From: Chloroflexota bacterium
GTDB taxonomy: Bacteria; Chloroflexota; Anaerolineae; J102
Reading direction: 5' to 3'
Assembly (NCBI GenBank): GCA_013151415.1
Contig: JAADII010000006.1
Coordinates: 1-36,861 of the forward strand
Length of the DNA stretch: 36,861 nucleotides
Part shown: piece by piece, positions 5,983 to 36,753 of the stretch
Layout: every line of letters starts with the position of its first letter
How positions within the stretch are numbered: position 1 is the first letter of the stretch
Translations under genes and position numbers: made by a program
Notes under the pieces: generated by a model
The model's database searches: none
What the model was told of the DNA's origin: nothing
What the model saw: the letters and a program-made list of their open reading frames with translations, nothing else

Positions 5983-7418
5983 TAGCTTGCCTTTCGCGCC
6001 AACAAAACAATGAGTAGAAGCCCGCCCAAAGCCAAGAGAATGCTCAGGACGCCAAAACAGCATGCCAGGGGAAGCCACAGGGGTATTTCCTGCGACAACG
6101 CCGTTGAAGGAAGAGGAGTGGGCGTGGGCGAAGGAGTGAATGGGCGCGTGGGAGATGGGATGGGCGTGAGGGTGGGTGAAGGAGAAGGAGTGAGAGTGGG
6201 TGATGAAACGCTGGCGCGCGTGGGCGAAGGGGTGCGGGTTTTCTGGTAAAAAGGCAGGGGCGTGGGAGGTTCGGGCGTAGGATAAACCCAAGGCGTGGGC
6301 GTGACCAGTGAGCCGGGCGGCGCACCCAGCCACTCGGCCCAATCCAGATCAAATTGACCCATACTGACGCCCAAAGCGGCCTCAAATGCGTCGTCTCCGG
6401 CCTTGCCCGCTTTATACGCAGCCAGTAAACGCGCCAAACCCTCTTGGCCATACGTCTCGATAAGATAAACCACGGCTGAATAGGATTCTTTATAAGCCAA
6501 ACGCACTCGCGTTTCATCCGAACGACCAAATCCGGCCGTGAGAGTGACGAGCGGAATCAGTTGACCTTCCTTCGCCACCTCGCGCATTTCCTCGACAATC
6601 CAACGCTGGTCTTGAAACTCATTATATTGAGCGACGCCTTCGTTGAGCCAGGTGGGCGCGGGCGCGGCCGGGTTGCCTGCCACTTGCTCAAAATAGAGAT
6701 GAGAAATCTCGTGCGGGATGACATCATTGAGCCAAGCCTTGTCGGGCCGTTTCCCCTTGACCACTTGCGTGGTGATGCCAAAGGCCGGAAAGCCCAATCC
6801 TCCGGCCCATTCGGTGGGAACGCCATGCCAGGCTTGGAAATCTTCAAGAGTGCCATAAATGACTATGCGAATCGGATGCTCCAAATCAGCGCCAAATAAC
6901 TGACGCTGTCGCTCCACCGCCTTTTGAGCGAGAGCGAACACTTGTCTGCCAAATTTTTTGGGCTTGTCGTACCACCAAACCGAAATGCGCTCATCTTCCA
7001 GTTTTTTCCAGCGAAAACGCACGTCTTCGTAGAACACGCGCTGGGGCTCGGTCTGTAATTTCGCTCCGGTGGAATCGGTCACCACCCAATAAAACACCAC
7101 GGGCGCGAAAGGCGGCGTGGTGATTCCATCCGTATCCCAAGTGTAGGCAAGAGTCACCTTTTTCCCTGGCTCGAACTCGATCTGGCGACGATTCAGATTG
7201 TCGAGCCCTAACAGGTTGTCGAGGTAGAACACCAGCTCGGCTTTGATGATTTCGCCATCGCGGCTGATGGCTTCGGTTTCAAAGCTGAGACTGCTGGGAA
7301 ACTGGTTGCGAATCGTGGTGGCCGAGATGGTGATGGCCGGCTCTTGGGCGGCTACGCCAGGCGCGAGCAAAGAAAATGCAAACAAGGAAAAAAGGGAAAG
7401 CCAAAGGAAACGGTTCAT
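5982..7418 (-). CDS. Membrane-anchored gluzincin (peptidase MA-like) metallopeptidase
   Basis: A secreted or surface-held zinc protease of the peptidase MA-like family, 478 residues from the ATG at 7418. Residues 1-24 (MNRFLWLSLFSLFAFSLLAP...) form a signal peptide. The active site is HEISH within IPHEISHLYFEQ, with the downstream glutamate in WLNEGVAQY as the probable third zinc ligand. The C-terminus holds a Thr/Ser/Pro-rich linker of about 60 residues (PTPSPTP-type), then a hydrophobic segment LWLPLACCFGVLSILLALGG and a short LLARKAS tail. The protein is therefore probably tethered by its C-terminus with the catalytic domain outside. An upstream in-frame extension of 44 residues is not used because it would hide the signal peptide. 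The natural substrate is unknown. It lies between the reductase gene and the GH4 gene. Confidence 0.88.
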   Translation of the reverse strand: MNRFLWLSLFSLFAFSLLAPGVAAQEPAITISATTIRNQFPSSLSFETEAISRDGEIIKAELVFYLDNLLGLDNLNRRQIEFEPGKKVTLAYTWDTDGITTPPFAPVVFYWVVTDSTGAKLQTEPQRVFYEDVRFRWKKLEDERISVWWYDKPKKFGRQVFALAQKAVERQRQLFGADLEHPIRIVIYGTLEDFQAWHGVPTEWAGGLGFPAFGITTQVVKGKRPDKAWLNDVIPHEISHLYFEQVAGNPAAPAPTWLNEGVAQYNEFQDQRWIVEEMREVAKEGQLIPLVTLTAGFGRSDETRVRLAYKESYSAVVYLIETYGQEGLARLLAAYKAGKAGDDAFEAALGVSMGQFDLDWAEWLGAPPGSLVTPTPWVYPTPEPPTPLPFYQKTRTPSPTRASVSSPTLTPSPSPTLTPIPSPTRPFTPSPTPTPLPSTALSQEIPLWLPLACCFGVLSILLALGGLLLIVLLARKAS

Positions 7419-7479
7419 GTGTGATGTGATGATCTGGATGTGGACGAAGGCGAGACGAACGCTCTCTATGCACCTTGCG

Positions 7480-8352
7480 TCAATTTTGGAGACATACTTC
7501 GTAAGGCGAGCGAGGACGGTTATGAAGCAACGCACGCGCCAGGCTATCACTGAGATCCAAACATCGAGGCGCTATGAAATCAGACGGCATGGGCGCGGCG
7601 ACTATGTTGGCTGGATCGAGACCAAGCTTTTGGCATAGAAGCAGGCCAAATTCGTAACGACTCAAGGCTATCGGGCCAACAAGATGGATCACGCCACTGA
7701 AATCCAAGGTCGCCAGCTCCCATAAGCACGTCGCCAGATCTGGCGCGTAGATGGGGCGACGGATTTGATCGGTGAATAAGGTCACTTTCCGGCCGGCCTG
7801 AACGCCCTCAACCAGCCAGCGGGTGCTATGGTCCAACGGCTCGAAACCGTAAATGAGCGAGGTGCGGACGATAACAGGGCTGGGATGAATCTCACGCACC
7901 AAATGCTCGGCGCGAGCTTTCGCGCGACCATGCGGGGAGAGGGGATCGGGTTGTCCGCTTTGGGGTTCGGGATGAGGCGTGGCCGATTCATCATATGTTG
8001 GGGCCGCGCCATCGAACACGATGTCGGAGGAAAGATGAATGAGTCCAACCCCGAATTCGGCCGCAGCCCGGGCCACATGGACGGAACCGCGCACAATGAC
8101 AGCATCGAATTGAGTGGGTTGGCGAGAGATGGCGGTGTGCAAAATCAGATCGGGCCGAGCGCGTCTGATCACCGTTCGCACAGCCTCGGGTTCGCGAATA
8201 TCCATCGGCATGGCCCTTATATTGGGACTTGACAACAATGGTTGCGTGCGATGGTAACAAGCTATGATCCGCCAATCCCTGGAAGAAGCGCTCAGCAAGA
8301 GATGGCGTCCCAAATAACCGCTGGCGCCAGTGATGAGAATGCAACGATTCAT
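7480..8352 (-). CDS. RmlD-like NAD(P)-dependent sugar-nucleotide reductase (SDR)
   Basis: An extended short-chain dehydrogenase of the RmlD/dTDP-4-dehydrorhamnose reductase type, 290 residues from ATG 8352 (AGGTGG precedes it). The N-terminus has the nucleotide-binding LITGASGYLGRHLL glycine motif. LSSDIVFDGAAPTYDE (about 108-122) is the RmlD-type signature around the catalytic Ser/Thr. The expected YxxxK motif reads HGRAK, so the usual Tyr is His141 with Lys145 retained. This could change chemistry or reduce activity. The C-terminal half (YAPDLATCLWELA, GVIHLVGP) fits the substrate-binding region. No other rhamnose genes are nearby, so the sugar substrate is open. The gene begins 14 nt after the rnc stop. 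Confidence 0.85.
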   Translation of the reverse strand: MNRCILITGASGYLGRHLLLSASSRDWRIIACYHRTQPLLSSPNIRAMPMDIREPEAVRTVIRRARPDLILHTAISRQPTQFDAVIVRGSVHVARAAAEFGVGLIHLSSDIVFDGAAPTYDESATPHPEPQSGQPDPLSPHGRAKARAEHLVREIHPSPVIVRTSLIYGFEPLDHSTRWLVEGVQAGRKVTLFTDQIRRPIYAPDLATCLWELATLDFSGVIHLVGPIALSRYEFGLLLCQKLGLDPANIVAAPMPSDFIAPRCLDLSDSLARALLHNRPRSPYEVCLQN

Positions 8353-8365
8353 ACGCCCACCTGGA

Positions 8366-9082
8366 TCATTCACGACCGGCGATAGCCTCAAGCGCGGCGC
8401 GAGCGGCTTGCTGAGCCGCTTTTTGCTTGCTCAGCCCCACGCCCACGCCATACACATCCTGGCCAATCCACACCTCCACGGTGAATTCTTTCGCGTGGTC
8501 TGGGCCTGTGCTGCCCACAGTGACATAATGAGGCGTTTCGCCTAGTGCAGTCTGCGCCCATTCTTGTAGACGGCTTTTGGGGTCTTTGGTCAATTCGCCA
8601 TGAGCCAAAGGAACCAGCATGGGTTCGAGTAAAGGATAGAGAAAACTCGCGGCGGTTTCCAAGCCTTGATCAAGATATATGGCGCCGCAAAGGGCCTCAA
8701 ACGCGGCGCAAAGTAATGCATCGCGTTCTCGGCCGCCATTTTCAGCCTCCCCTCGGCCCAACAAAAGGTATTTTCCGAGATCGATCTGACGAGCGAAGCG
8801 AGCGAGCGTCTCTCTTCTCACCAGGCTGGCGCGCATGGTGGTTAGCGTGCCTTCTCGTTGTTCCGGGAAACGCTGGTAGAGAACTTCGGCAACCAAAAGA
8901 TCGATGACCGCATCGCCCAGGAATTCCAGACGTTCGTTGTCCATATGCACCAATGGCGCCTCATTGAGAAAGGAACGATGAGTGAGCGCGCGGGTAAGCA
9001 GGCTTTTGTCTTTGAAATGGATGCCCAAGCGGTCTTCGAGCTCGTGATGAAGTGCAAACACGTCAATTCGTCTTGAATCCAT
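8366..9082 (-). CDS. rnc: Ribonuclease III
   Basis: An endonuclease that cuts double-stranded RNA in rRNA maturation and mRNA turnover; 238 residues, the family's usual size. The signature NERLEFLGDAV lies at 49-59, with the catalytic Glu53 and Asp57. A second acidic cluster (AAFEALCGAIYLDQG, about 128-142) supplies the remaining Mg2+ ligands. The C-terminal dsRBD runs from about residue 165 (DPKSRLQEWAQ) to the end, with the KQKAAQQAARAALEAI helix. The ATG at 9082 overlaps the 3' end of the PLP-enzyme gene by 20 nt, so translation is probably coupled. Confidence 0.95.
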   Translation of the reverse strand: MDSRRIDVFALHHELEDRLGIHFKDKSLLTRALTHRSFLNEAPLVHMDNERLEFLGDAVIDLLVAEVLYQRFPEQREGTLTTMRASLVRRETLARFARQIDLGKYLLLGRGEAENGGRERDALLCAAFEALCGAIYLDQGLETAASFLYPLLEPMLVPLAHGELTKDPKSRLQEWAQTALGETPHYVTVGSTGPDHAKEFTVEVWIGQDVYGVGVGLSKQKAAQQAARAALEAIAGRE

Positions 9083-25361: not shown

Positions 25362-26612
25362 TCAATCGAGTTCAAGCCATTGCGCCAGCGTATTCTTCCG
25401 TTGAGCCAGTTGGCCTACAGCTTTTTCTCCGCGCAGTAGACGAAGCACATTCGCGGCGTTGCGCCGGAGCATCTCCCACCAGCGCCGAGGATAGGTGAAA
25501 TACAATCGATAGGACGCCGACGGAACCCCATACGCCTTGGACATGCGCGAGCGAGAAGGGAAAAACATGCGCCAGAGGTGACCAAGAAGCTGGGGCGGAG
25601 AGCGCCCCACTTCGAGCAGCCGCGCCACATTGCCGGATAGGCGTTTATTGGTTTGTTTGGAGGTGAAAATCTGCTCTCTGGCCGCGTCGAGAAGGAGGGG
25701 CGATATGCCCTCCGGTTGCAGAGCGTCTATCAGACCGTCGGGTGGGGTCGCGCCGACCAGGTCCTGCGCCAACAAAAGCGCCAAAGCCGCGCCGCGCCGC
25801 CATCCCCAGCGCACAGCCCGCTCTCGGACCGCCTCCCAATCAAGTTCACGCTCGAAATGACGGATCGCCGCAGCCAGGTCACAAGACGGTCGCAGCCCGA
25901 ATTCGAACCGATGCTGGTAGGAAGTGTGCAAACAGAGGTGCAGTATCAAGTCTTCGGGGCTGAGCGCGAGCGCATCGACTCCGGCCAGGTTGACGGGCCT
26001 GGCTCGATCCCATAGTTCCCGCACATCGATGTGGTAGGCGTATTGCGGCGCGGTGATGTTCCAGTGCAACTCAACCGAGGCTTTTCCCTCCTGAACATAA
26101 CGCGTCAGATGATGACTCCATGCCAGGTCGCTTTCGAGTACGTAGGCCTTTCGTGGATAATAGCCCAGATCGCTCAAGACGTTTGCGGCCTGAGCCATGT
26201 TTTGTCTGGGCGCGAGCAGATCGATGTCGTTCATCTCGCGCAGCCCAATTTGCTCGTATACAGCCGAAGCCAGATAAAGTCCCTTGAGCGCGATGATAGG
26301 AATGTCGGCTTCTTGCATGGATAAAGCCATACGCCGAAACTCGGCGCTGAGTCGCAGATTTCGGAAAGTGTTGCGGCGATATGCATCTTCCAACCGATCT
26401 ACGATGGTTTTGGGCGCGGCATCAACCAGATTTTTTTCACGCAGTCGATGATAGAGCAGAGGACGCACCCGTTGCTCCGCGGCCAATTGCAGCAAGGCGT
26501 CCCAATCGGATGCGGTCAAGCGCCTCACCTCGGCCGCGGACACCCTTCCCGGCTGCTGATGCAGGCAGGCGAGAAGGATGGAGATGATATGCTGGTCGGT
26601 TGGGCTGTTCAC
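25362..26612 (-). CDS. Lasso cluster nucleotidyltransferase-family protein
   Basis: A 416-residue protein of the uncharacterised nucleotidyltransferase family (NTP_transf_5 type), from a GTG at 26612 that overlaps the ABC exporter stop (GTGA). The core motif IIALKGLYLASAVYEQIGLREMNDIDLLA holds the Lys-Gly loop (110-111) and an N-D-I-D pair (Asp129, Asp131) in the position of the metal-binding acidic residues of the Pol-beta fold. Members of this family recur in lasso clusters that also have a kinase, but their role is unproven. Adding a nucleotide to the product, or a self-immunity role, are both possible. It is the last gene of the lasso operon. Confidence 0.82.
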   Translation of the reverse strand: MNSPTDQHIISILLACLHQQPGRVSAAEVRRLTASDWDALLQLAAEQRVRPLLYHRLREKNLVDAAPKTIVDRLEDAYRRNTFRNLRLSAEFRRMALSMQEADIPIIALKGLYLASAVYEQIGLREMNDIDLLAPRQNMAQAANVLSDLGYYPRKAYVLESDLAWSHHLTRYVQEGKASVELHWNITAPQYAYHIDVRELWDRARPVNLAGVDALALSPEDLILHLCLHTSYQHRFEFGLRPSCDLAAAIRHFERELDWEAVRERAVRWGWRRGAALALLLAQDLVGATPPDGLIDALQPEGISPLLLDAAREQIFTSKQTNKRLSGNVARLLEVGRSPPQLLGHLWRMFFPSRSRMSKAYGVPSASYRLYFTYPRRWWEMLRRNAANVLRLLRGEKAVGQLAQRKNTLAQWLELD

Positions 26613-28483
26613 GGTTCAGAATTCACCGTTTTGGTCTCCGGCCTGCTTTGGTTTTTTCTTTGCCCATCTGATCTTTGATTACGCCAAGACTCGGCGTAAC
26701 GGCCATTGAATTTCAACAAGGTTTGATGCGTTCCCGACTCAATGATTCGACCTTGATCCATGACATGGATGATGTCGGCGACCATTGCTGTGGTGAAACG
26801 GTGGGTGATGATCAGCGCGGTGCGACCGGCCACAAGGCGCCGGAAGCGGGCCAGCCAGTCGGCTTCGGCCCAGGAGTCCATGGCGCTGGTGGGTTCGTCG
26901 AGGATGATGATGGACGCTCGACGCAGAAACGCGCGCGCCAGGGCCAGGCGTTGCCACTCTCCACCGCTCAATTCCGCGCCGCCAAACCACTTGCCCAACA
27001 CGGTCTCATATTCCCGCGGCAAACGACGGATAGACTCATCCGCACCAGCCGCGCGGGCCGCGGCTTCGATGGCCGTTTGGGTCGGCTCGGCCGCGAGATC
27101 GCCCAGCGCGATGTTACGCGCCGCGGTGGTGTGGTAGTGCACCGACTCTTGAAACAGCACCGTAATCTGACGACGCAGCCAATCCAAAGGCAGGTCGCGA
27201 ATATCCCGACCGTTCAACAGCACCCGACCGACCGACGGGTCGTAGAAACGGCATATCAACTTGGCAATGGTGCTCTTGCCCGCGCCGTTTTTACCCACCA
27301 AAGCCACGATCTGGCCTGGGGGCAGCACCAGATCCAGGCCATCCAGGGCCGGTCTTGCGCTATCCGGGTAGCAGAAGCGAACATTCTGCAGACGAACTTC
27401 GAACGGCGGTTGAGGCTGGAGAGATGGAAGGGAAGTGGGGGACGAGATTTGGGGACGCAGGGCCAAAAACTCGAATAGATTTTCCAGAAACAGAACATTC
27501 CGCACCACCTCACCGATATTATTGAGCAGTGTTCGCATCATGCGCTGGCCTTGCGAGAACGCCTGATAGAAAAGCGCCACGTCACCCAGCGTCACCGCAC
27601 CCTGCACGGCCCGCCAGATCATCCACGCCATGCCCGCAGCCAACGCCAGCAACCCCAACCCCCCCGCGATCAGCTCGGCCAGGGCCTGGTCTCGGGCGAG
27701 AGCTATGCGCTCGGTGCGCAAACCGAGCCGGACGCGTTGAAACGCCTCACGGAAGTGATCTCCCAGATCGAACAGGCGCAATTCTGCGGCCGATTCGCGC
27801 CGCGTCAGCAGCCATTCGTAGTAGCGAGTGCGACGCACGGCCTTGGTGTTGCGCAATCGCCATCGATGAAAACGCAGCGTGTAACGAATCGCGACCCACA
27901 AAGCGGGCAGGGTTCCCAATAATAGAAGCAGGGGCGGCCCCAGGCCGTAGGGAAGCAGCACGCCGATCATGGCCACCAGGGTGATGCTGTTTTGCACCAG
28001 CCCCCCCACATTTTCCAGCAGGGCCAGGGGCCTCATGCGCGCGTCCACCCGCGCGCGATGAAGCTGGTCGTAATAATCGGGCGATTCATAAAAAGCCAGG
28101 TCCAGGGCCGCGGCCTGGCGCTGAATGAGATCACTGATGTGATCTTGCACCAATTCGGCCTGGGCTGTGCGCACCCACGTGGTCTGGCTGCGCATGAGTT
28201 CGGACAGGAGCAACACGACGGCCATGAGGCCGACCAAAAGTAGGGTGGGGCGAACTGTCTCCCACGTGGGCGACGCGGTCAGCGCCTCCACCAGGCTATC
28301 CACCAGGGTCTTGGTCAGATAGACTGTGGCCACCGGCAACGCGCCTTGCATCACCAGCAGCGCGGCCCAGGCGATGGTCCAGCCGCGCGCGGCCGTCCAC
28401 ACCAGCTTCAACGCTCGCGGGAGATAGGGCCATTGCGCTCGCAACGCGCGTAAATGAACTATCGAACTTGCTTGAGGGTTCAT
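26609..28483 (-). CDS. Lasso peptide ABC exporter (D protein)
   Basis: A 624-residue ABC half-transporter with fused membrane and ATPase domains. Transmembrane helices lie at about 35-60, 78-98, 160-200 and 268-293. The nucleotide-binding domain has Walker A GKNGAGKST (397-405), signature LSGGE (505-509) and Walker B IIILDE (525-530). There is no C39 peptidase domain, consistent with leader removal by the B1/B2 pair rather than by the exporter. By family role it should export the mature lasso peptide and give immunity. It lies downstream of the precursor genes and a 14-bp stem-loop, and no clear Shine-Dalgarno precedes its ATG. Its stop codon overlaps the nucleotidyltransferase start. Confidence 0.9.
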   Translation of the reverse strand: MNPQASSIVHLRALRAQWPYLPRALKLVWTAARGWTIAWAALLVMQGALPVATVYLTKTLVDSLVEALTASPTWETVRPTLLLVGLMAVVLLLSELMRSQTTWVRTAQAELVQDHISDLIQRQAAALDLAFYESPDYYDQLHRARVDARMRPLALLENVGGLVQNSITLVAMIGVLLPYGLGPPLLLLLGTLPALWVAIRYTLRFHRWRLRNTKAVRRTRYYEWLLTRRESAAELRLFDLGDHFREAFQRVRLGLRTERIALARDQALAELIAGGLGLLALAAGMAWMIWRAVQGAVTLGDVALFYQAFSQGQRMMRTLLNNIGEVVRNVLFLENLFEFLALRPQISSPTSLPSLQPQPPFEVRLQNVRFCYPDSARPALDGLDLVLPPGQIVALVGKNGAGKSTIAKLICRFYDPSVGRVLLNGRDIRDLPLDWLRRQITVLFQESVHYHTTAARNIALGDLAAEPTQTAIEAAARAAGADESIRRLPREYETVLGKWFGGAELSGGEWQRLALARAFLRRASIIILDEPTSAMDSWAEADWLARFRRLVAGRTALIITHRFTTAMVADIIHVMDQGRIIESGTHQTLLKFNGRYAESWRNQRSDGQRKNQSRPETKTVNSEP

Positions 28484-28509
28484 GCCGCGGCCGGGCCATT
28501 GAGCAAGAA

Positions 28510-28547
28510 TTCGCCCGACGGCCGCGGCTCGTTGGCCGTCGGGCGAA
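28510..28547 (-). terminator. 14-bp GC-rich stem-loop after the precursor genes
   Basis: TTCGCCCGACGGCC (28510-28523) pairs perfectly with GGCCGTCGGGCGAA (28534-28547), with a 10-nt loop. It sits 20 nt after the second precursor stop and 27 nt before the exporter ATG. The minus-strand continuation TTCTTGCTC is only weakly T-rich. It is best read as a partial terminator or 3' stabilising hairpin that would raise precursor mRNA over exporter mRNA. Confidence 0.65.
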
Positions 28548-28566
28548 GCTTATCGGCCGTCGAGAG

Positions 28567-28728
28567 TTAGCTGGCGCTGGTGTCGGTGGCGTCGGTGATT
28601 GGGCCTAGACCTGTTTCCGTCGCCTTGAGATCGAGTTCTGTCAGCGAAGGTGGACGCCAGGTTTTTGAGCGCGAAGTTTGCTGCGGATGAACCGTTTGAT
28701 CCGCTTGGGATGCCTGTTGTGTCTTCAT
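28567..28728 (-). CDS. Lasso precursor peptide 2
   Basis: A 53-residue precursor read from ATG 28728 (GGAGG upstream). The leader is 38 residues and contains the motif TWRPPSLTELDLKATE: W-x2-P-x-L-x3-D-x3-T-x, the spacing found in paeninodin-type leaders, which should bind the B1 RRE. Cleavage is predicted after KATE, with Thr at -2. The core would be TGLGPITDATDTSAS, with Asp8 supplying an 8-residue macrolactam ring to Thr1, and a seven-residue tail ending in Ser. The leader shares the block SLTELDLKATETG almost base for base with precursor 1, while the cores differ. The core has no aromatic, Lys, Arg or other bulky residue to act as a plug. No homology search has been run. Confidence 0.8.
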   Translation of the reverse strand: MKTQQASQADQTVHPQQTSRSKTWRPPSLTELDLKATETGLGPITDATDTSAS

Positions 28729-28798
28729 GCTGAGCCCCTCCGTTGGTTGAAATGAGAATGGGCCGTGATCGTGAACGACGCTTGTTAGCTCGCCGGAG

Positions 28799-28933
28799 TC
28801 AACTGCTCTTGGCGACGGTGGTGTCCACCAGTATGCCAGCGCCCGTTTCCGTCGCCTTGAGGTCGAGCTCTGTCAGCGTGGGCTTGCGCCAGGGCCGTTT
28901 GGTCTGGGTTTGCGATGCTTGTTGCGTGGTCAT
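28799..28933 (-). CDS. Lasso precursor peptide 1
   Basis: A 44-residue precursor. The ATG at 28933 overlaps the cyclase stop (ATGA), with GGAAG upstream. The leader motif is PWRKPTLTELDLKATE, spaced as in paeninodin (Trp in place of the usual Tyr, Pro at +3, Leu at +5, Asp at +9, Thr at +13), followed by Glu at -1. The predicted core is TGAGILVDTTVAKSS, with Asp8 for an 8-residue ring and Ser as last residue. Paeninodin's kinase phosphorylates the C-terminal Ser of the precursor, so this Ser is the natural target of the HPr-kinase-like gene upstream. Thr at position 1 is unusual, because Gly, Ala, Ser or Cys is commoner. One Lys in the tail is its only bulky residue. Confidence 0.82.
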   Translation of the reverse strand: MTTQQASQTQTKRPWRKPTLTELDLKATETGAGILVDTTVAKSS

Positions 28934-30915
28934 GATGCACTTCCATTCAAGTGGGTGTGTGGAGACAGTTGCGGTTGACGAGTGGTGGATTCGTCGGAGT
29001 CAAGGGTCCATAAGTCACCTCCTTTGGAAAAGCGAATCAGAAACAAACTACAGGCCAGGCCATGCATGAGCAAACGCGCGGCCACCCACCGGGGGTGGTC
29101 GATGGCCTCCGATTGGGAAATATCGGCCCATATCGCGTTTAGTCGCGGGATGTCGATGTACGCGGTCACCAGCGGATCGTCTCGGATGCGGGAGAACGCC
29201 CACTCCACATCCTCGCGGTGCATACGCAGACGGGCCAGCAAGTCCGCGCCTTGCAGGCCGCGACGGTGGTTGGTCCGCACTTCCTCCGGTAGGATGTCGC
29301 CCAGGGCCTGGCGATACAGTCCTCGGCTTTCGCCGTTGACATAAAAGAAACGGTCCGGTATGCCCAGGCAAAAAGTCATGAGGCGGGCGTCGGCCAACGG
29401 GATGCGGGTTTCGAGACCAAACCAGGCGGCCAGCGCGGCCTGACGCGCGCCGCCCGTCCATTGGCCCGGCTTGATGGTGGCCAGCCGCTGCTCGCGCGAG
29501 GATAGCCGTCCATGCTGCAACATTTTGTCATCGATTTCGCGATTCGCGTCGGCCATGCGTTGGGCCAAATGGTGACGCCGCGCCGCTTGCGAATGAATGA
29601 CCGAATGAGTTCGCCAGTCGTCATGCGCGAGGCGATCGCGTTTTATCCGGCGCGCCAGAGCATAGGGGATGTGGGGCGCTGCTTTGGCGCGTAATCCCTC
29701 TTTCCAGCGACCTTGCCGTAGCAAAGTGAGCCAATCTTGCGAGCGTAACAGCCCCCGCCAACTGGCGCTGACATTGCCCATGTAGCCGTTCAACAAGGCT
29801 CCAACCCCTTGTTGGGCGGCAAGCTCGCGAATGCCCAGAAGCCACGGCGCATTGGCCCAGCCCATGGTGGGCGCGTCCAGGATGTCCAGCATGATCTGGA
29901 CGGCGACTATGGGGCTGATCTCGGCGAAATGGGGGTAATGGTCGCGTATATTGCCTACATGAACCGTGACCGCTCGCGCCCACCGCGACTCGTCGGCCAC
30001 GCGAGTTCCCACGGTCACGGCGTCATCGCTCATAGGCGTGGCCGTGTAGGTGAACAGGGGTTTGTTCTGCTCGGCCAACATGGGGGCGGCCAGCGCGGCC
30101 AATCCGGCCGAGTCTAGACCCCCGCTGAGGCTCAGGCCCACGCCGCGGAAGCTGCGCACTTGGCTGCGCACGACGCGCTCCAGCATTTCGCGCAAGGCTT
30201 TTGCGTAAGCGTCGGCCGAGGGCAGGCGCACTTCGGGCGCGTTTTCCAATTGCCAATAGCGGCTGGACGCCATCTTTTCGGGCGTGACGGTGAGCGCGTG
30301 CGCGGGCGGAAGGAGATGAACGTCCTTGAAAAAGGTTTCCACGGGATCATCCTCCCAATGCGCGAGCGCGGCCGTAAATTTGCGTTGGTTCAGTTGGGGA
30401 GCGACTTGAGGCAGGCTCAGCAGGGCTTTTTGTGAGGAAGCGAAGGCGAAGAAATGCTGGCGATTGATATAATATAGTGCGGTGACGCCGTGATGATCGC
30501 GGGCCAGAAAAAGTCGGCGTTCATCGGGTCGCCACACCGCGAACGACCAATCCCCAAAAAGATGGTTGAGGCAATCTTCGCCCCATCGGTCATAGGCCAG
30601 CAAGATGAGATCGCCATCGGGGATGCGCTCGCGTTGATTCCTGGCAATGCCGAAGTAGTCGCACAATTCGTCGCGATTGTCCAGCCGGGCCTCGGCCGTG
30701 ATGGCCAGTTGACCATGGGCGACTGAGCGGGGCATTCGCTCGTGCAAAGCCTGGGGCGTGTTGTAAAGTAGCAAATGGCCCAGGCCGCAGGGGCCGCGTC
30801 GCCACACGCCGCCGCCATCCGGCCCCCAATAGGCCATGGCCCGGCGCATGGTTTCCAATAGAGCGGGATCGACGGTCGCGCCGTCTTTGTCGAAGAAGCC
30901 GAAGATGCCGCTCAT
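28930..30915 (-). CDS. Lasso cyclase (asparagine synthetase-like C protein)
   Basis: A 661-residue asparagine-synthetase-like protein from ATG 30915, which overlaps the B2 stop codon (ATGA). Class B-type asparagine synthetases start Met-Cys-Gly-Ile with Cys as glutaminase nucleophile. This one starts MSGIFGFFD, so the glutaminase nucleophile is replaced by Ser, as in other lasso cyclases, whose ring-closing amine comes from the core N-terminus and not from ammonia. The N-terminal domain runs to about residue 210. The synthetase domain has the ATP-pyrophosphatase loop SLSGGLDSAG (about 262-271). It should adenylate Asp8 of the core and close the macrolactam. The 65-residue in-frame extension upstream of this ATG lies inside the B2 gene and is rejected. 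Confidence 0.92.
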   Translation of the reverse strand: MSGIFGFFDKDGATVDPALLETMRRAMAYWGPDGGGVWRRGPCGLGHLLLYNTPQALHERMPRSVAHGQLAITAEARLDNRDELCDYFGIARNQRERIPDGDLILLAYDRWGEDCLNHLFGDWSFAVWRPDERRLFLARDHHGVTALYYINRQHFFAFASSQKALLSLPQVAPQLNQRKFTAALAHWEDDPVETFFKDVHLLPPAHALTVTPEKMASSRYWQLENAPEVRLPSADAYAKALREMLERVVRSQVRSFRGVGLSLSGGLDSAGLAALAAPMLAEQNKPLFTYTATPMSDDAVTVGTRVADESRWARAVTVHVGNIRDHYPHFAEISPIVAVQIMLDILDAPTMGWANAPWLLGIRELAAQQGVGALLNGYMGNVSASWRGLLRSQDWLTLLRQGRWKEGLRAKAAPHIPYALARRIKRDRLAHDDWRTHSVIHSQAARRHHLAQRMADANREIDDKMLQHGRLSSREQRLATIKPGQWTGGARQAALAAWFGLETRIPLADARLMTFCLGIPDRFFYVNGESRGLYRQALGDILPEEVRTNHRRGLQGADLLARLRMHREDVEWAFSRIRDDPLVTAYIDIPRLNAIWADISQSEAIDHPRWVAARLLMHGLACSLFLIRFSKGGDLWTLDSDESTTRQPQLSPHTHLNGSAS

Positions 30916-31364
30916 CGCCTCGCCTCCCCAAAACAGGCCACAACGCGATAGTTTTCCATGCCCGCCCGACCGGTGATGATGTGCTCGCCCGAGCGAAGCC
31001 AGGCGTGGGCCTCCATGTGTTGGCCGGTTTTGTTCACCCCCAAATAGAGCGCGTTGGGCAAGCCTCGGCGGCGCAACATCCAGTGGCCGGCCACGGCTTG
31101 TTCCAGGCATTTGCTGCGCCAGGGCGTGATGTGAGCCGCGCGCTGCAAGGCTCGCCCAATCCGCGGGGCCACCTGCTCATGCCCGCGAGGATCACCCCCG
31201 GTTGTGGGTGGGTGTGCGACCAGCCATCGGAAGGGCAAAAGCACGATGGCCAGCCTTGCCAACCCCAGCATGAGCACTGCTTCGCCGAGCATCAACCGGG
31301 CCGACCAGGAAAGTCGGCGCAGCGCGCGCCATTTACTCCGAAACGATCTCAACCAGGTTCGCAT
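30912..31364 (-). CDS. Lasso leader protease (transglutaminase-like B2 protein)
   Basis: A 150-residue B2-type protease. The catalytic Cys86 lies in RSKCLEQAVAGHWMLRRRGLP and His120 in EAHAWL, as in McjB/B2 transglutaminase-like proteins. The third acidic residue is not certain (Glu127 lies close by). The N-terminal segment (22-45) is hydrophobic and may anchor the protein to the membrane. It cleaves the leader after the TE position, guided by B1. It overlaps the B1 gene by 32 nt and the cyclase gene by ATGA, so these three are translationally coupled. Confidence 0.9.
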   Translation of the reverse strand: MRTWLRSFRSKWRALRRLSWSARLMLGEAVLMLGLARLAIVLLPFRWLVAHPPTTGGDPRGHEQVAPRIGRALQRAAHITPWRSKCLEQAVAGHWMLRRRGLPNALYLGVNKTGQHMEAHAWLRSGEHIITGRAGMENYRVVACFGEARR

Positions 31365-31635
31365 CGGCCAACCTCTTCACGAACGCCAGCACATCCTGTT
31401 CGCACGTTTGGCGATCCACATCGTACTCTTCCTGCAAGCGGTCGCACACCGCGGAAATGGTTTGGGGTTGGGATAGCAGCTTCCAAATGCGCGCGCCTAC
31501 AGGATCCATGCCGAAGTATTTGTCGCTATTCAGTTCGAGCAGCACGACTTCGTCATCGATGTCGCCGGCCAGGAGTCCTTGGGCTTGCACCACGCTCGTG
31601 TGTAGATGAATGTTTTCCATGGGTCTCGCGGTCAT
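31333..31635 (-). CDS. Lasso RiPP recognition element (PqqD-like B1 protein)
   Basis: A 100-residue PqqD-family winged-helix RRE protein that binds the precursor leader and presents it to B2 and C. Characteristic blocks are DDEVVLLELNSDKYFGMDPVGARIWKLL and ISAVCDRLQEEYDVDRQTCEQDVLAFVKRL. The ATG at 31635 is preferred over ATG 31620 because AAGGAGG lies 4-8 nt upstream. A triple 22-bp tandem repeat lies right before this start and could influence its expression. The split of B1 and B2 into separate genes is normal for Firmicutes- and Chloroflexota-like clusters. Confidence 0.9.
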   Translation of the reverse strand: MTARPMENIHLHTSVVQAQGLLAGDIDDEVVLLELNSDKYFGMDPVGARIWKLLSQPQTISAVCDRLQEEYDVDRQTCEQDVLAFVKRLADANLVEIVSE

Positions 31636-31646
31636 GCATCCTCCTT

Positions 31647-31712
31647 GGTCAGAGCGGCAGGGGTCAGGGGTCAGAGCGGCGGGGGTCAGGTGTCAGAGCG
31701 GCAGGGGGCAGG
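31647..31712. repeat. Three 22-bp tandem repeats before the B1 gene
   Basis: Units GGTCAGAGCGGCAGGGGTCAGG, with one change in the second unit and two in the third. They lie 12 nt upstream of the B1 ATG, just before the Shine-Dalgarno. Confidence 0.75.
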
Positions 31713-31907
31713 GGACAGAATCCAATACGCGATTTTCCAGCGGTCATAGCGAGCCATCTCGGCCTATTTCAGCAAACAAAGGGACGAACATGGACGAAAA
31801 ATAGACCAGGATAGACGAAAAAGGATGGCATGACGCCTCGATTTCATGGTTTATCTTCGTCCTATGGTCTGCTCCTCGAGGGCAAGTTTTCCTGGACTAC
31901 GGCAAAA

Positions 31908-31942: not shown

Positions 31943-32863
31943 TTAGAGGCCGGGAGGGTGAATCGTGAACTGTGCATGGAGCAACGGACTTTGGAAATCG
32001 GCTTGAGGGCTTTTGCCCCCATCCGGCAGATAGCCAAGCCGGTTCATCATGGCGCGATGGTCGGTGATGATGCGAGCGGCCTGGGCTTTGCTGAGCGCAT
32101 CGCGCCAGCCGCCAACCCGGCCTCGCCTGAAAAAACGAGCGTTTGCGCGCGGACGTTCGCGAAAGCCTTTTTCCCTTTCCTGACGTTGCAACACATCGAA
32201 GCGGGAGAAACGAATGGCTTTCTCCAGCCGCATTTCATCCGTAGGCAGGCCAACAAATGCCACAACGCGCGCAAAGGTGGCGAACGGTTCCGCGTGCATG
32301 TCTTCGTAGCGCACCGGGAGCACAGGAAAGGGCTTTTCGATGTCCAGCCAACTGCTCACGTGGTCGCTCCAAGAGAGCAGTTTTTGGCGAAATTGGGTGT
32401 TCCCGCGCCTGACCGACGCGGCCAAGACCGCGCCTGAATCGCCCATGCGTTCGATGGTCTGCTCCAGTGATTCATCGTCCATATGGTGCTGCATGGAGAC
32501 GGCTACATCCAATGGATTGCGAACGATGTAAATCGCGGCTCGGGTGGCCTCGGCCGGAAAAAGGGGGCTTCCGTCCGGCAATAACGTATATGCATCGTGC
32601 GTTTTGATGAAACGCACTTCTTCGCTCTCGGCCGCCAGCGCGCGGTAGACATCAGGCCGCAGGAGGTCGATTTCATCTGCGGTGAGCTCCGTGGACTCCA
32701 CGCCGGCGTATTCCTCCACAAGGCTATGCACGCTGGCGCCGCCCATTTTTTCTAGATCGTTAATATCGGCCGGTTCGTCGGCGTCGCGTAGATAATTGGT
32801 CAGAAACACGCGCATCCAGGTGTTGCCTGATTTTGGGTAGGAGGCCAACCAGATGATGCTCAT
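31943..32863 (-). CDS. Lasso cluster sulfotransferase
   Basis: A 306-residue PAPS-dependent sulfotransferase. The 5'-phosphosulfate loop is at the N-terminus (LASYPKSGNTWMRVF, with Lys11 and the Ser-Gly-Asn-Thr phosphate contacts). The 3'-phosphate strand is IYIVRNPLDVAVSMQHH, and VRYEDMHAEP marks the family's late conserved segment. It overlaps the kinase stop by ATGA, so the two genes are made together. In context its substrate is probably the lasso peptide or a residue of it (Ser/Thr hydroxyl); sulfation of another metabolite is possible. The frame ends in a short, less conserved tail. Confidence 0.88.
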   Translation of the reverse strand: MSIIWLASYPKSGNTWMRVFLTNYLRDADEPADINDLEKMGGASVHSLVEEYAGVESTELTADEIDLLRPDVYRALAAESEEVRFIKTHDAYTLLPDGSPLFPAEATRAAIYIVRNPLDVAVSMQHHMDDESLEQTIERMGDSGAVLAASVRRGNTQFRQKLLSWSDHVSSWLDIEKPFPVLPVRYEDMHAEPFATFARVVAFVGLPTDEMRLEKAIRFSRFDVLQRQEREKGFRERPRANARFFRRGRVGGWRDALSKAQAARIITDHRAMMNRLGYLPDGGKSPQADFQSPLLHAQFTIHPPGL

Positions 32864-33777
32864 TGCCGGAGATCGTTTTCAATGAGATCGGCCAACTCAT
32901 CGAGCGAGCAGCCGCTTTTAGGACGTTCGATGATGCAGACGCGCGCTTGTGAAGCAATGGCGATCATCGCGCCAAAAAGCCACGGCCACACGCGCTGCGC
33001 TTCGGCGAATCGGAATTTGAAGAGGTGAGATTGAATTTCTCTCAATTTGGCCGCGCCTTCGAGCGGTTTGAGTTTGGGGCGTTCGATGGGTTTGGCCGTC
33101 AGAAAATAGATGGCGTGCAGCCGCGTCGGACGCGTGCAAAATGCGTTCGGGGGGATCGGGTAGTGATACTTGTGCAATTCAGGACGGATTTGCTTCAATT
33201 CGCTCGTGTTCACCCCCAAACGTTGGCACGCGTCGGCCCAGACTTTGATGCTGGGATAACCCGGCAACACGCGGCACGCGCCGTCGCTTTCCATGCGAAT
33301 CGCGCTGAGGTCATCGGCCAGCGAGCGAAAGCCGCGAAGGTGCAATGCTAAAGCCAACGTTGATTTTCCTGCACCGGCGTTTCCGCTCAGCAGCATAGCC
33401 CCTTGCTCGCCGACCAGCGCGTTGCCATGCAGGGGTGGAAGGCCTCGCTGCATGATTAATGCCGACATGCAAGAACTTAACAGAAACGCCCTCACCACGT
33501 CGTCGCGTCCCCGACCCACGCGCTCGACCACCACTTCCCGTCCTTGCCGCACCAAAAAACGCGCGCCGGTGATGTGTTCTGCTGTCAACAACCACACATC
33601 ACGGCGCGCCTGACGAATAAGGCCATCAATGGCCGGTTGCTCAAGAGACCGGGGCACAGCGCCCAAACGAATATGGACATCGGGCGGTCCGTTGGCCGGC
33701 ATCAGTTCGGGAAGCGGGATCGCCGATGTCAGGTTCAAATCGTAGATGCGATAATGGAAACCCTGTCGAGGACTCAT
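32860..33777 (-). CDS. Lasso cluster HPr kinase-like peptide kinase
   Basis: A 305-residue protein from ATG 33777 related to the HPr kinase/phosphorylase C-terminal domain and to the lasso kinases of paeninodin clusters. The P-loop is SGNAGAGKST (131-140), preceded by the PPLHGNALVGEQGAMLL strand and followed by RGFRSLADDLSAIR, whose acidic pair (155-156) suits Mg2+/ATP binding. Paeninodin's kinase phosphorylates the C-terminal Ser of the precursor; both precursors here end in Ser. Being first in the operon, it should be translated in step with the sulfotransferase. No Shine-Dalgarno is obvious. A TTG at 33813 gives an alternative, longer start. Confidence 0.85.
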   Translation of the reverse strand: MSPRQGFHYRIYDLNLTSAIPLPELMPANGPPDVHIRLGAVPRSLEQPAIDGLIRQARRDVWLLTAEHITGARFLVRQGREVVVERVGRGRDDVVRAFLLSSCMSALIMQRGLPPLHGNALVGEQGAMLLSGNAGAGKSTLALALHLRGFRSLADDLSAIRMESDGACRVLPGYPSIKVWADACQRLGVNTSELKQIRPELHKYHYPIPPNAFCTRPTRLHAIYFLTAKPIERPKLKPLEGAAKLREIQSHLFKFRFAEAQRVWPWLFGAMIAIASQARVCIIERPKSGCSLDELADLIENDLRQ

Positions 33778-33880
33778 AACCGTATGCGAAATGGGAGGCC
33801 GACGACATCCCAATCAAATGAGCGCCTGGGCCTCGAGCGTTTCGGAGTTGCGGGAGGACCCCCAACCAGGCATTGACGGC

Positions 33881-33957: not shown

Positions 33958-36753
33958 TCAATTATCGGGCGTATAGGCGTATGTGACGCGTAGTTGGGGC
34001 GGGGAGCCGGACGCGCTTTCGAGGCTATGGAGTGCAATGCGTCCGGGAGGGCCGCTGGCGCTGAGTGCGAGGTAGGCCCAGCGGAAGGAGCGGAGGCCGT
34101 AGGCGTCCCAGGCCGCGACTTGAGCGGTGACGTCCAGAGAGAGGGGGCCGGGTGTGGAGGGGATGGGTGCGGGCGGGGATGGGTTGTAGGCGTCGGGTGC
34201 GGAGGCGTAGGTGACAAGAGCGGGGGTGAAGGGTTCGGTGTTGAGTGCGGTGAGGGTTTTGCCCCAAGCGCCGGATTGGGCGGTGAGATTGAGGGTGAGA
34301 GTGGCGCTGATGATGGAGGCGTTTTGAGGGAGCAGGGAGCGGTCGAACTTGAGGAGGGCGTTGTCGAGGCCGGAGGTCCAGATAGAGAGGCCGGGCCAGG
34401 TCTGGTAGTTGAGGTGTGGGCGACCCCAGGTGACCCAGGTGTCGTCGAGGAGGGGGAGTGTGATGGTTTGCGTGATGGGTGGGGTGGGGGGCGTGGTGGG
34501 GGTTTCGAAGAAGAACATGGTTTCGTGGACTTCGTGGGTGGGATTGGTCCATTCGAGTGTGGTCAAGTCGAGGATTTCGCCATCTTCGCTCCAGACGTCG
34601 ATGGGTGTCATGCCTTGTGGGGTGTGAGCGATGAGGGTGTAGGCGTCGTAATCGAGCCAGGGTTGGATGATGTGGAAGTTGAAGAAGCCGGCGAGGTCGG
34701 TGGATTTGGAAGCGATGATGAATTTGCGTTGCGGGTTGCTCTCGTTCCAGCCGAAGAGAGTGAGGCGCGCATTGGGTAGGGGTTGGGAGAAGTCGCCCCG
34801 GGGGCCGTTGTACACAAAGCCCCGGAAGCGCATGACGGGCGTGGGCGTGGGTGTGACGGTGGGGGTTTTGGTGGGCGTGGGGGAGGGCGTGGGTGAAGCG
34901 GTGTGAGTGGGTGATGGAGAGGGAGTGGGCGTAGGCGAGGGCGTGGAGGTGGGTAGAGGGGAGGGTGTGAAGGTGGGAGTGGGCGTATTCGTGGGAGCGG
35001 AGAGGCCGGAGCAATCTTTGCCGGCGTCGGTGATGGACCAGCCGCGAGAAGCGATCATGTTGTTTCGGGCGGCTTCGCCGTTGCAATAAGTGCTGTCGCC
35101 GGCGTGAAAGGTGACGTTGGGCTGCAAGGCTTGGGCGTTCCAGCCCGTGAGCAGGGCGTCGTAATTGGCGGTGGAGAGCTTGGCGCCGAGGAACATATCG
35201 GTGGCGTCGGCGAGGGAGGTCACGTTCCAGCCGCCGATGTCCTGGTCGAAGGCCGCGGCGTTGTAGAACATGTTGCTCATATTGGTGACGTTGGAGACAT
35301 CCCAAGCGCCGATGTCCTGATTGAAGGTCGCGGCGCCTCCGAACATGCTCGCCATATTGGTGACGTTGGAGACATTCCACCCGCCGATGTCTTGGTCGAA
35401 TGCTGCAGCCTCTGCGAACATGTACGCCATATCGGTGACGTTGGAGACATCCCAAGCGCCGATGTCCTGGTTGAAGGCCTTAGCGTTGTTGAACATCCAT
35501 CTCATAGAGACGACGTTGGAAGTGTCCCAAGCGCCGATGTCTTGGTTGAATGCCACAGCGTCTCCGAACATGCTGCCCATATAGGTGACGTTGGAGACAT
35601 CCCAGCCGCCGATGTCCTGATTGAATGCCGTAGCGCCTGCGAACATGCCGCCCATATCGGTGACGTTGGAGACATTCCAAGCGCCGATGTCCTGATTGAA
35701 GGCTGTAGCGTCGGCGAACATTACGGCCATAATGGTGACGTTGGAGACATCCCAGCCGCCGATGTCCTGGTTGAATGCCGTAGCGCCTGCGAACATGCTG
35801 TTCATTTCGGTGACGTTGGAGACATTCCAAGCGCCGATGTCCTGATTGAATGCCGTAGCGCCTGCGAACATCCTTGACATATCGGTGACGTTGGAAGTGT
35901 CCCAAGCGCCGATGTCCTGATTGAATGCCGTAGCGTATGTGAACATCCTTGACATATCGGTGACGTTGGAAGTGTCCCAAGCGCCGATGTCCTGATTGAA
36001 TGCCGTAGCGCCTGCGAACATGCCGCCCATATCGGTGACGTTGGAGACATTCCAAGCGCCGATGTCCTGGTTGAAGGCCTTAGCACCTTCGAACATACCG
36101 AACATATCGGTGACGTTGGAGGTGTCCCATGCGCCGATATCTTGGTTGAAGGCCGTCGCGTATGCGAACATCTGGCTCATATTGGTGGCGTTGGAGACAT
36201 CCCACCCACCGATGTCTCCGTTGAAAGCCCGGGCGTCCAAGAACATGCGGACCATATCGGTGACATTGGAGAGGTCGGGTGCGTCGGTGGCGTTCATGGT
36301 CATGTTGATGGCCCCTTGAAAAGCCCGCGCCATGGATGTCCATTTTCCCGTTCCCCACTGCTCGATGGTGAGGAGCTTCTGTGCATCCAGCGAGTAATAG
36401 ATTCTGGGAAATCCTACGCCGGCGCCGGTGTTGTCTTTGATGCGGATGGTGTATGTGCCGGGGCTGGCGTAGTCGCAAACATAGTCCCCGGTGACGCCGG
36501 TGGCTTCGTTTACGCCGTCGTTGTCGCAATCCACGTTGTAGTTGTAGCCGCCGCCGATGGTGGTGATGGTGAATTGGGTGTCGGAGGACATGCCCGGGTT
36601 GTCGGTCTTGACGGTGATGACGAAGTCGTCGGTGGATGCGGGTATGGCGATGGCGCGGCCGGCGTCGGGCTGCGCGTGGATGGCCATGAGCCAAAGCGTC
36701 GCGGCCGCGAGACCAATCAGGGTGAAGCGGAATGATGGCAAACGCATGTTCAT
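33958..36753 (-). CDS. BspA-family (DUF285) repeat surface protein with DNRLRE-like domain
   Basis: A 931-residue secreted protein. Residues 1-33 are a signal peptide ([17 protein letters not shown]). Residues 177-526 hold fourteen 25-residue repeats of the type [20 protein letters not shown], the BspA/DUF285 leucine-rich-like repeat that many bacteria display for adhesion; a degenerate unit precedes them. A Thr-Pro/Ser-Pro linker spans 587-639, then an SdrD-B/carboxypeptidase-regulatory-like domain ([15 protein letters not shown]..., about 641-745). A C-terminal DNRLRE-like domain (about 750-931) begins [13 protein letters not shown] and contains [11 protein letters not shown]. Some DUF285 units are nearly identical at DNA level, so recent expansion or concerted evolution is likely. 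No LPXTG or transmembrane anchor is seen at the end. It ends in TPDN, as does the partial gene at the edge of the window. Confidence 0.88.
35176..36225 (-). repeat. Fourteen 75-bp tandem coding repeats
   Basis: The DUF285 units of the surface-protein gene, each 75 bp, with conserved words such as GCCGATGTCCTG and GACGTTGGA at the same place in each unit. Near identity between non-adjacent units suggests gene conversion or slippage. Confidence 0.9.

Follow-up and report, generated by a model that had tools for sequence, protein, structure and literature searches.

What do two short open reading frames, placed between a putative lasso cyclase gene and a transporter gene, encode, and how could a peptide that begins with Thr and has hardly any bulky residue in its tail be closed and held as a lasso? 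These questions are raised by the window, by which we mean the whole 36,861-nucleotide stretch that was analysed and which belongs to a 4.5-Mb genome of a Chloroflexota bacterium in the class Anaerolineae. A preliminary description of this DNA had placed in it two hidden precursor peptides with Thr1-Asp8 rings and no plug residues, and both small frames are indeed present on the minus strand (28933-28799 and 28728-28567).

Operon and precursor genes

The two frames lie within an operon whose order along the minus strand is K-ST-B1-B2-C-A1-A2-D-N:

K, 32860..33813 (-), HPr-kinase-like peptide kinase (TIGR04352/HprK-related models, E 7e-8; Hpr_kinase_C, E 1e-4)
ST, 31943..32863 (-), PAPS-type sulfotransferase (PF00685, E 5e-32); start overlaps the K stop codon
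B1, 31333..31635 (-), PqqD-like RRE, predicted leader binder (NF033536 lasso PqqD, 84.6 bits, above the cut-off of 80)
B2, 30912..31364 (-), leader peptidase (NF033537, 91.6 bits, above the cut-off of 33; PF13471)
C, 28930..30915 (-), lasso (macrolactam) cyclase; the MSGIFGFFDKDG start overlaps the B2 stop codon (ATGA)
A1, 28799..28933 (-), precursor of 44 aa; leader ...WRKPTLTELDLKATE, core TGAGILVDTTVAKSS; below the NF033524 cut-off
A2, 28567..28728 (-), precursor of 53 aa; leader ...WRPPSLTELDLKATE, core TGLGPITDATDTSAS
Hairpin between A2 and D, 28484..28569 (-), 14-bp stem TTCGCCCGACGGCC...; fold -44.5 kcal/mol, z -3.7
D, 26609..28483 (-), ABC transporter (ABC_tran, E 4.5e-32)
N, 25362..26612 (-), nucleotidyltransferase (PF14907, E 5e-68); start overlaps the D stop codon

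ATGA overlaps join K to ST, B2 to C, D to N and also C to A1, the start of A1 overlapping the stop codon of C; A2 has GGAGGGG just 5' of its ATG. The hairpin is very stable and probably marks the end of a transcript or a point at which processing stops, to the advantage of the A genes. Before the A genes, the operon has only one long gap, of about 300 bp between ST and B1, and a 22-bp unit is repeated in it in 3.3 copies (31647-31719). Directly upstream of K, a gene on the same strand (33958-36753) encodes a 931-aa surface-type protein with PARCEL/DUF285 repeats and a C-terminal DNRLRE domain; this gene contains a 75/225-bp tandem array at 35232-36272.

The enzymes expected of a lasso cluster are present: an RRE protein (B1, for which TbiB1 is the nearest solved chain), a transglutaminase-like peptidase (B2) and an asparagine-synthetase-like cyclase (C). 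Although C is under the NF033535 cut-off (389 bits against 525, E 3e-116), it is over the cut-off for PF00733 and GATase and has the SGGLDS ATP-binding motif. Elsewhere in the genome B2 has a second, weak match (G000:C110), which was set aside because this transglutaminase-like protein stands alone, with no lasso genes beside it. The K motif H-x14-G-x2-G-x-G-K-S-x15-D-D is spaced exactly as in the catalytic motif of the lasso kinase BsfK (PMC10368454). Such a kinase, with its H, GxxGxGKS and DD motif, and cores ending in Ser, as both window cores do, are features of phosphorylated lasso peptides. ST has the PAPS-binding and catalytic motifs of a PAPS-dependent sulfotransferase (YPKSGNTW, K-x-HDA and RNPLD, all kept in its lasso-associated homologues); among solved chains it is closest to Teg12 and Teg14, which are sulfotransferases of glycopeptide antibiotics. 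A PF14907 nucleotidyltransferase such as N is found in clusters for pseudomycoidin-like phosphoglycosylated lassos. D has 57% identity to the D that adjoins the lasso cluster of another genome (G044), and would serve in export and possibly in self-protection.

It was fair to call the precursors hidden: no Pfam or NCBIfam model calls either frame. The best model, NF033524 (paeninodin family), matches A1 only (E 0.005, 16.5 bits, cut-off 27) and has no hit to A2. Elsewhere in the host genome only one sequence resembles the precursors (G000:C69); the match is weak (E 0.7) and was dropped, lying as it does inside a larger, unrelated, repeat-bearing frame of 812 aa.

The earlier reading of a lasso leader with paeninodin-like spacing is supported. 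The block common to A1 and A2, LTELDLKATETG, is the same in both proteins. Its 12 codons differ at four synonymous and no non-synonymous sites, whereas downstream of Gly2 nine amino-acid changes are found in 13 codons. This substitution pattern shows that the leader, Thr1 and Gly2 were kept by selection as the remaining core residues changed, much as had been proposed; it is far beyond chance and is that expected of paralogous genes in which leader, Thr1 and Gly2 are under purifying selection. Counting the leader Thr as -2, Asp is at core position 8 in both, and the ring positions that the cores share are T1, G2, G4 and D8, again as described. Thr(-2) followed by Asp or Glu at core position 7-9 marks a lasso precursor and is present in A1, A2 and their relatives. 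Judged from sequence, A1 and A2 are real lasso-peptide precursor genes within a complete, tightly packed operon. Cores are 14-16 residues in length, short enough to be readily synthesised.

Kinase-sulfotransferase pairs in other genomes

Relatives were taken from a search of other genomes because a cyclase scan of a collection of genome contigs gave only four distant ones. Among 396 Anaerolineae genomes, ST homologues at at least 46% identity comprise 11 matches in 10 genomes, all of them in or beside lasso genes. K is directly upstream, on the same strand, of 11 of the 12 Anaerolineae ST genes (counting an incomplete one that lies at the end of a contig in G008). The exception is L110 in G133: here B1 and B2 adjoin ST, and a separate contig (L085) carries C, two K genes and two precursors. 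The K-ST pair also occurs in two further Chloroflexota genomes and at three alphaproteobacterial plasmid loci. ST homologues thus sit with lasso genes, mostly behind K, which makes ST a dedicated partner of the lasso-cluster kinase. Two kinase genes lie side by side in the lasso loci L085 (6854-8631) and L109 (G260, 6754-8486), and one of the two L109 copies is without the full catalytic motif.

It seems very unlikely that ST and K modify another molecule of the operon or cell and not the peptide. PF00685 enzymes often modify small molecules, those of nearest solved structure have glycopeptide antibiotics as substrates, and no hydroxyl that might be the ST acceptor was found to be conserved throughout the family cores. 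In Tistrella mobilis pTM1 (L181, NC_017957.2 602737-617585), a K-ST pair is accompanied by a second sulfotransferase and two precursor-like frames, and no cyclase was found within 7 kb. Even there, however, the adjoining frames read like precursors (SETL then TGVAYGSDGNCGS; SDTL then NNYSNSGGDGIGCVS). Moreover, ST is confined to lasso clusters in the 396 Anaerolineae genomes, its pairing with K is fixed, and the K motif is that of proven lasso-precursor kinases.

The sister cluster of the window, L084 in G163, has the same order from K to A, with identities of 63% for C, 67% for ST, 70% for B1 and 51% for K; the two are joined in the C tree with 100/100 support. Its precursor reads ...AWRKPALAEIDLEDTE followed by the core TGIHTGSDYSASSS. 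The search of relatives for the same leader, proposed in the preliminary description, thus gives this sister core and a family of 25 precursors with constant spacing from Thr(-2) to the ring acid. These 25 were curated from K-ST clusters of Chloroflexota and alphaproteobacterial plasmids. Cores from such clusters include HGPGSLTDGFQTGSSTTTGPR, GKSGTGGDASVASS, SGKTPGGDDGVSPGSTSTS and, in G630, KSTGSGSDGGSATK; the pairs YKTGSDTDGFSGSNIG and YKTGSNTDAGASGNVTD, FGGGSNIDGFTGSLPPQ and ADTGSIIDGGAFTTLT, SGGFSSFFENTNYYPNTAAIS and SGFIFATREETTIPTRPLAS, and FGGGSFTDGGMPSPG and FGAGSGTDMLNQTTTGV; one of four in G252, TAILPIVLETACVYPDV; and, on plasmids, GKAFANPTEASPATGS, VAGGFGPDNDLSPS, NNGLVAPGDDIFSPSPTGS, TGVAYGSDGNCGS and NNYSNSGGDGIGCVS. 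The register at L182 (RERTR then TWFGGALTD) is ambiguous. Small frames in G224, G087 and G150 (LDIAETLRGSGPCPDGDGGSEAM) are alike in leader style and were not counted, as their surroundings gave no match to the lasso genes of the window; the closely similar 34-aa frames at these loci (L062, L067 and L072), MRTWTKPVLVKLDIAETLRG[S/Q]GPCPDGDGGSEAM, have a lasso-like leader and perhaps represent another RRE-dependent peptide family.

Ring register and first residue

Counted from the leader Thr, the ring acid is at core position 8 or 9 in the 25 curated precursors. A shuffle test of Asp8/Glu9 is partly circular, since the first search required an acid at 7-9, and a leader-only scan requiring no acid was used instead: every convincing ST-cluster precursor has Asp8 or Glu9 from Thr(-2), the exception being a doubtful opposite-strand frame at L038 (ETTKTFSIIE) that was left out of the counts. 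The Thr1-Asp8 ring predicted earlier is strengthened both by this constant spacing and by the independent sister core.

The 25 K-ST-cluster cores begin with T, S, F, Y, H, K, A, G, V or N. Gly1 occurs in two of these, versus 13 of 21 cores from clusters without ST (Fisher p 1e-4, a descriptive value because clusters related on the tree do not give independent labels). Thr1 is also found in a cluster without ST (L150 in G166: TGQGNSTD..., with a Ser1 partner). Thr1 had been called unusual, and this holds against published surveys, in which residue 1 is Gly in 62%, Ala in 16% and Leu in 7% (PMC7549694); it does not hold as a singularity, as Tyr1 and Asn1 have been shown experimentally in Snou-LP (PMC5974421) and metanodin (PMC12670498) and residue 1 is variable within the K-ST family. 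Among the papers searched, no Thr1, Phe1, His1 or Lys1 lasso peptide was found. Because the K-ST relatives vary at residue 1 and have tails poor in bulky residues, Thr1 and the weak plug are best read as family traits, not as an oddity of the A1/A2 pair. Three Anaerolineae clusters without ST have predicted Asn1 cores that resemble the proven Asn1 of metanodin: NTFAWGSE (L042, G053), NSFLVSGLD (L045, G015) and NVKTFGLYD (L036, G044).

A core that begins one residue later, at Gly, would put the leader Thr at -3 and give a Gly1-Asp7 ring; with seven residues, such a ring would need a smaller plug, and both oddities would be gone. The distance from Thr to the acid is constant under either register, and the T/H/F/S-Gly2 pattern would fit the later cut too, which is a point against the Thr1 reading. 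Of 18 Chloroflexota ST-cluster cores, 13 have Gly, the commonest residue 1, right behind the odd residue, a smaller ring gives higher heat stability (PMC7549694), and one rumen survey put the leader Thr at -3 (PMC7533575). Despite these points, we consider the later cut quite unlikely. It would place Lys, Asp, Ala or Ser first in members such as YKTGSDTD, ADTGSIID, GKSGTGGD, TAILPIVLE, KSTGSGSD and VAGGFGPD. The resulting ring would also be smaller than the seven-residue rings of the xanthomonins, which are closed by Glu, and paeninodin has Ala1-Gly2 behind the same leader spacing. The Thr1-Asp8 register is preferred because Thr(-2) is the general rule, found in earlier reported precursors apart from rare Ile or Val (PMC10368454) and in metanodin (PMC12670498), because Ala1, Ser1 and Gly1 members occur in that register, and because of the first residues that the later cut would give in members without Gly2. 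Should the Thr1-Asp8 register hold, this family would supply natural lasso cyclases with a very wide choice at residue 1, a position that limits lasso engineering.

Tails, predicted tailoring enzymes and a possible lock

Tails of K-ST-cluster cores are short (median 8 residues). With relatedness of clusters ignored, their Ser/Thr fraction is 0.34 compared with 0.15 in clusters without ST (25 versus 21), and their F/W/Y/H/R/K fraction is 0.07 compared with 0.20. None of these six residues is found in 12 of 25 ST-cluster tails, versus one of 21 tails without ST. These figures extend to the family the point made earlier for the window pair. The claim that the window cores have no plug residues stands as a count: the core 2 tail is without F/W/Y/H/R/K/M and core 1 has Lys13 only. 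As a statement about the lock it is weaker than it was put, because in benenodin-1 Glu14 and Gln15 hold an 8-residue ring between them and Lys17 acts as a stopper (PMC13352647), so that a missing aromatic need not mean a missing lock. Core 1 may have an ordinary lock in Lys13; core 2 would need the smallest of locks or an added group. A phosphate or sulfate on Ser or Thr is an attractive hypothesis for this lock, and not a result.

With no holding residue in the tail, the ring could also be made and the product yet be branched-cyclic and unthreaded, or loosely threaded. The scarcity of F/W/Y/H/R/K in ST-cluster tails points this way, and in known lassos replacement of lock residues mostly stops maturation or permits unthreading by heat (PMC13352647). 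The cyclase family, however, closes rings round a prefolded tail, benenodin-1 manages with the modest residues named above, and two tailoring enzymes able to enlarge tail hydroxyls are always present; we regard such a product as unlikely.

That A1 and A2 are the precursors of a kinase- and sulfotransferase-tailored lasso cluster, with steps in the order K/ST, B2, C, N and D, we consider likely. From the genes, their order, motifs, conservation and spacing we infer the chemical steps, the threading and the choice of modified hydroxyls as follows. B1 would hold the leader (W-x2-P-x-L...LDLKATE), and K and ST would act on the linear precursor with its leader still attached: K most likely phosphorylates the C-terminal Ser, and sulfation by ST most likely falls on a Ser or Thr hydroxyl in the Ser/Thr-rich tail. 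B2 would then cleave after Glu(-1) and C would link the Thr1 alpha-amine to the Asp8 side chain, forming the ring around the tail. The phosphate may be extended by N, in the way that the pseudomycoidin nucleotidyltransferase does this with hexoses, and D would export the product. In the likeliest order, leader binding by B1 would precede phosphorylation and sulfation, followed by B2, C, possibly N, and D. The tail would be held by small to medium residues (Lys13 in core 1), probably aided by the added anionic groups, and residue 1 would be free to vary in the family.

Kinases of this type are known to work on the precursor while it is linear, either at its C-terminal Ser (PMC8498205) or, in the case of BsfK, at Ser3 with B1 helping (PMC10368454). 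The C-terminal residue is Ser in 10 of 18 Chloroflexota ST-cluster cores. Since members beginning YKTG, HGPG, FGGG and ADTG have K and end otherwise, K cannot always use a C-terminal Ser, and in the YKTG/HGPG/FGGG branch it must have another site.

The window combines features of several known systems. It shares with the paeninodin family of Bacillota (C-A-K-B1-B2-D) a split B1/B2, a kinase, the Thr(-2) leader spacing and the C-terminal Ser; it differs in its ring (Thr1-Asp8, compared with Ala1-Asp9), its short tail without aromatics, the K-ST pair that opens the operon and the A genes that follow C, and the NF033524 results place the window precursors outside that family. Snou-LP, metanodin and citrulassin (Leu1) likewise close a ring on a residue other than Gly behind a Thr(-2) leader, but their clusters are unrelated and without K-ST. 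Pseudomycoidin-type clusters, which make a phosphoglycosylated tail, have a kinase, a PF14907 nucleotidyltransferase and a core ending in Ser (PMC8498205); the window adds a sulfotransferase, and its operon ends with N, which follows D. The Bradymonas bsf cluster (PMC10368454) has the identical kinase motif spacing, the B1/B2/C/D/N set and an Asp8 ring, with Ile(-2) and Gly1 instead of the Thr(-2) and Thr1 of the window, whose cores have no Ser3. Kinase-bearing clusters of Bacillota with a predicted sulfotransferase gene at their start, as in the window, are mentioned by Zhu et al. 2016 (via PMC8498205); that likeness is by description only, in another phylum.

Lasso clusters with split B, a kinase and a nucleotidyltransferase are thus already known, as are proven Tyr1 and Asn1, and both odd first residues and a sulfotransferase gene in lasso clusters have been reported before. 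What is new, as read from these genomes, is a K-ST lasso family across two phyla, its free residue 1 (including Thr, Phe, His and Lys) and the trend in its tails. Among the papers searched, no sulfated lasso peptide was found, and the family would probably give the first ones if the register holds. A wider proposal, possible but on balance doubtful, is that across Chloroflexota and Alphaproteobacteria the K-ST cyclase takes almost any residue 1 (T, S, F, Y, H, K, V, N, A or G) and that sulfate and phosphate on tail hydroxyls, not bulky side chains, hold the thread, giving sulfated lassos with a chemical, removable lock. The family would be well suited to a clean test of the idea that a steric lock can be formed by a post-translational group.

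The four G252 precursors are in tandem within one K-ST cluster (L107, 11862-13071), and three of their four tails contain Cys (CFPCCNPS, TALCCLPS and TACVYPDV), which suggests that disulfides are possible.
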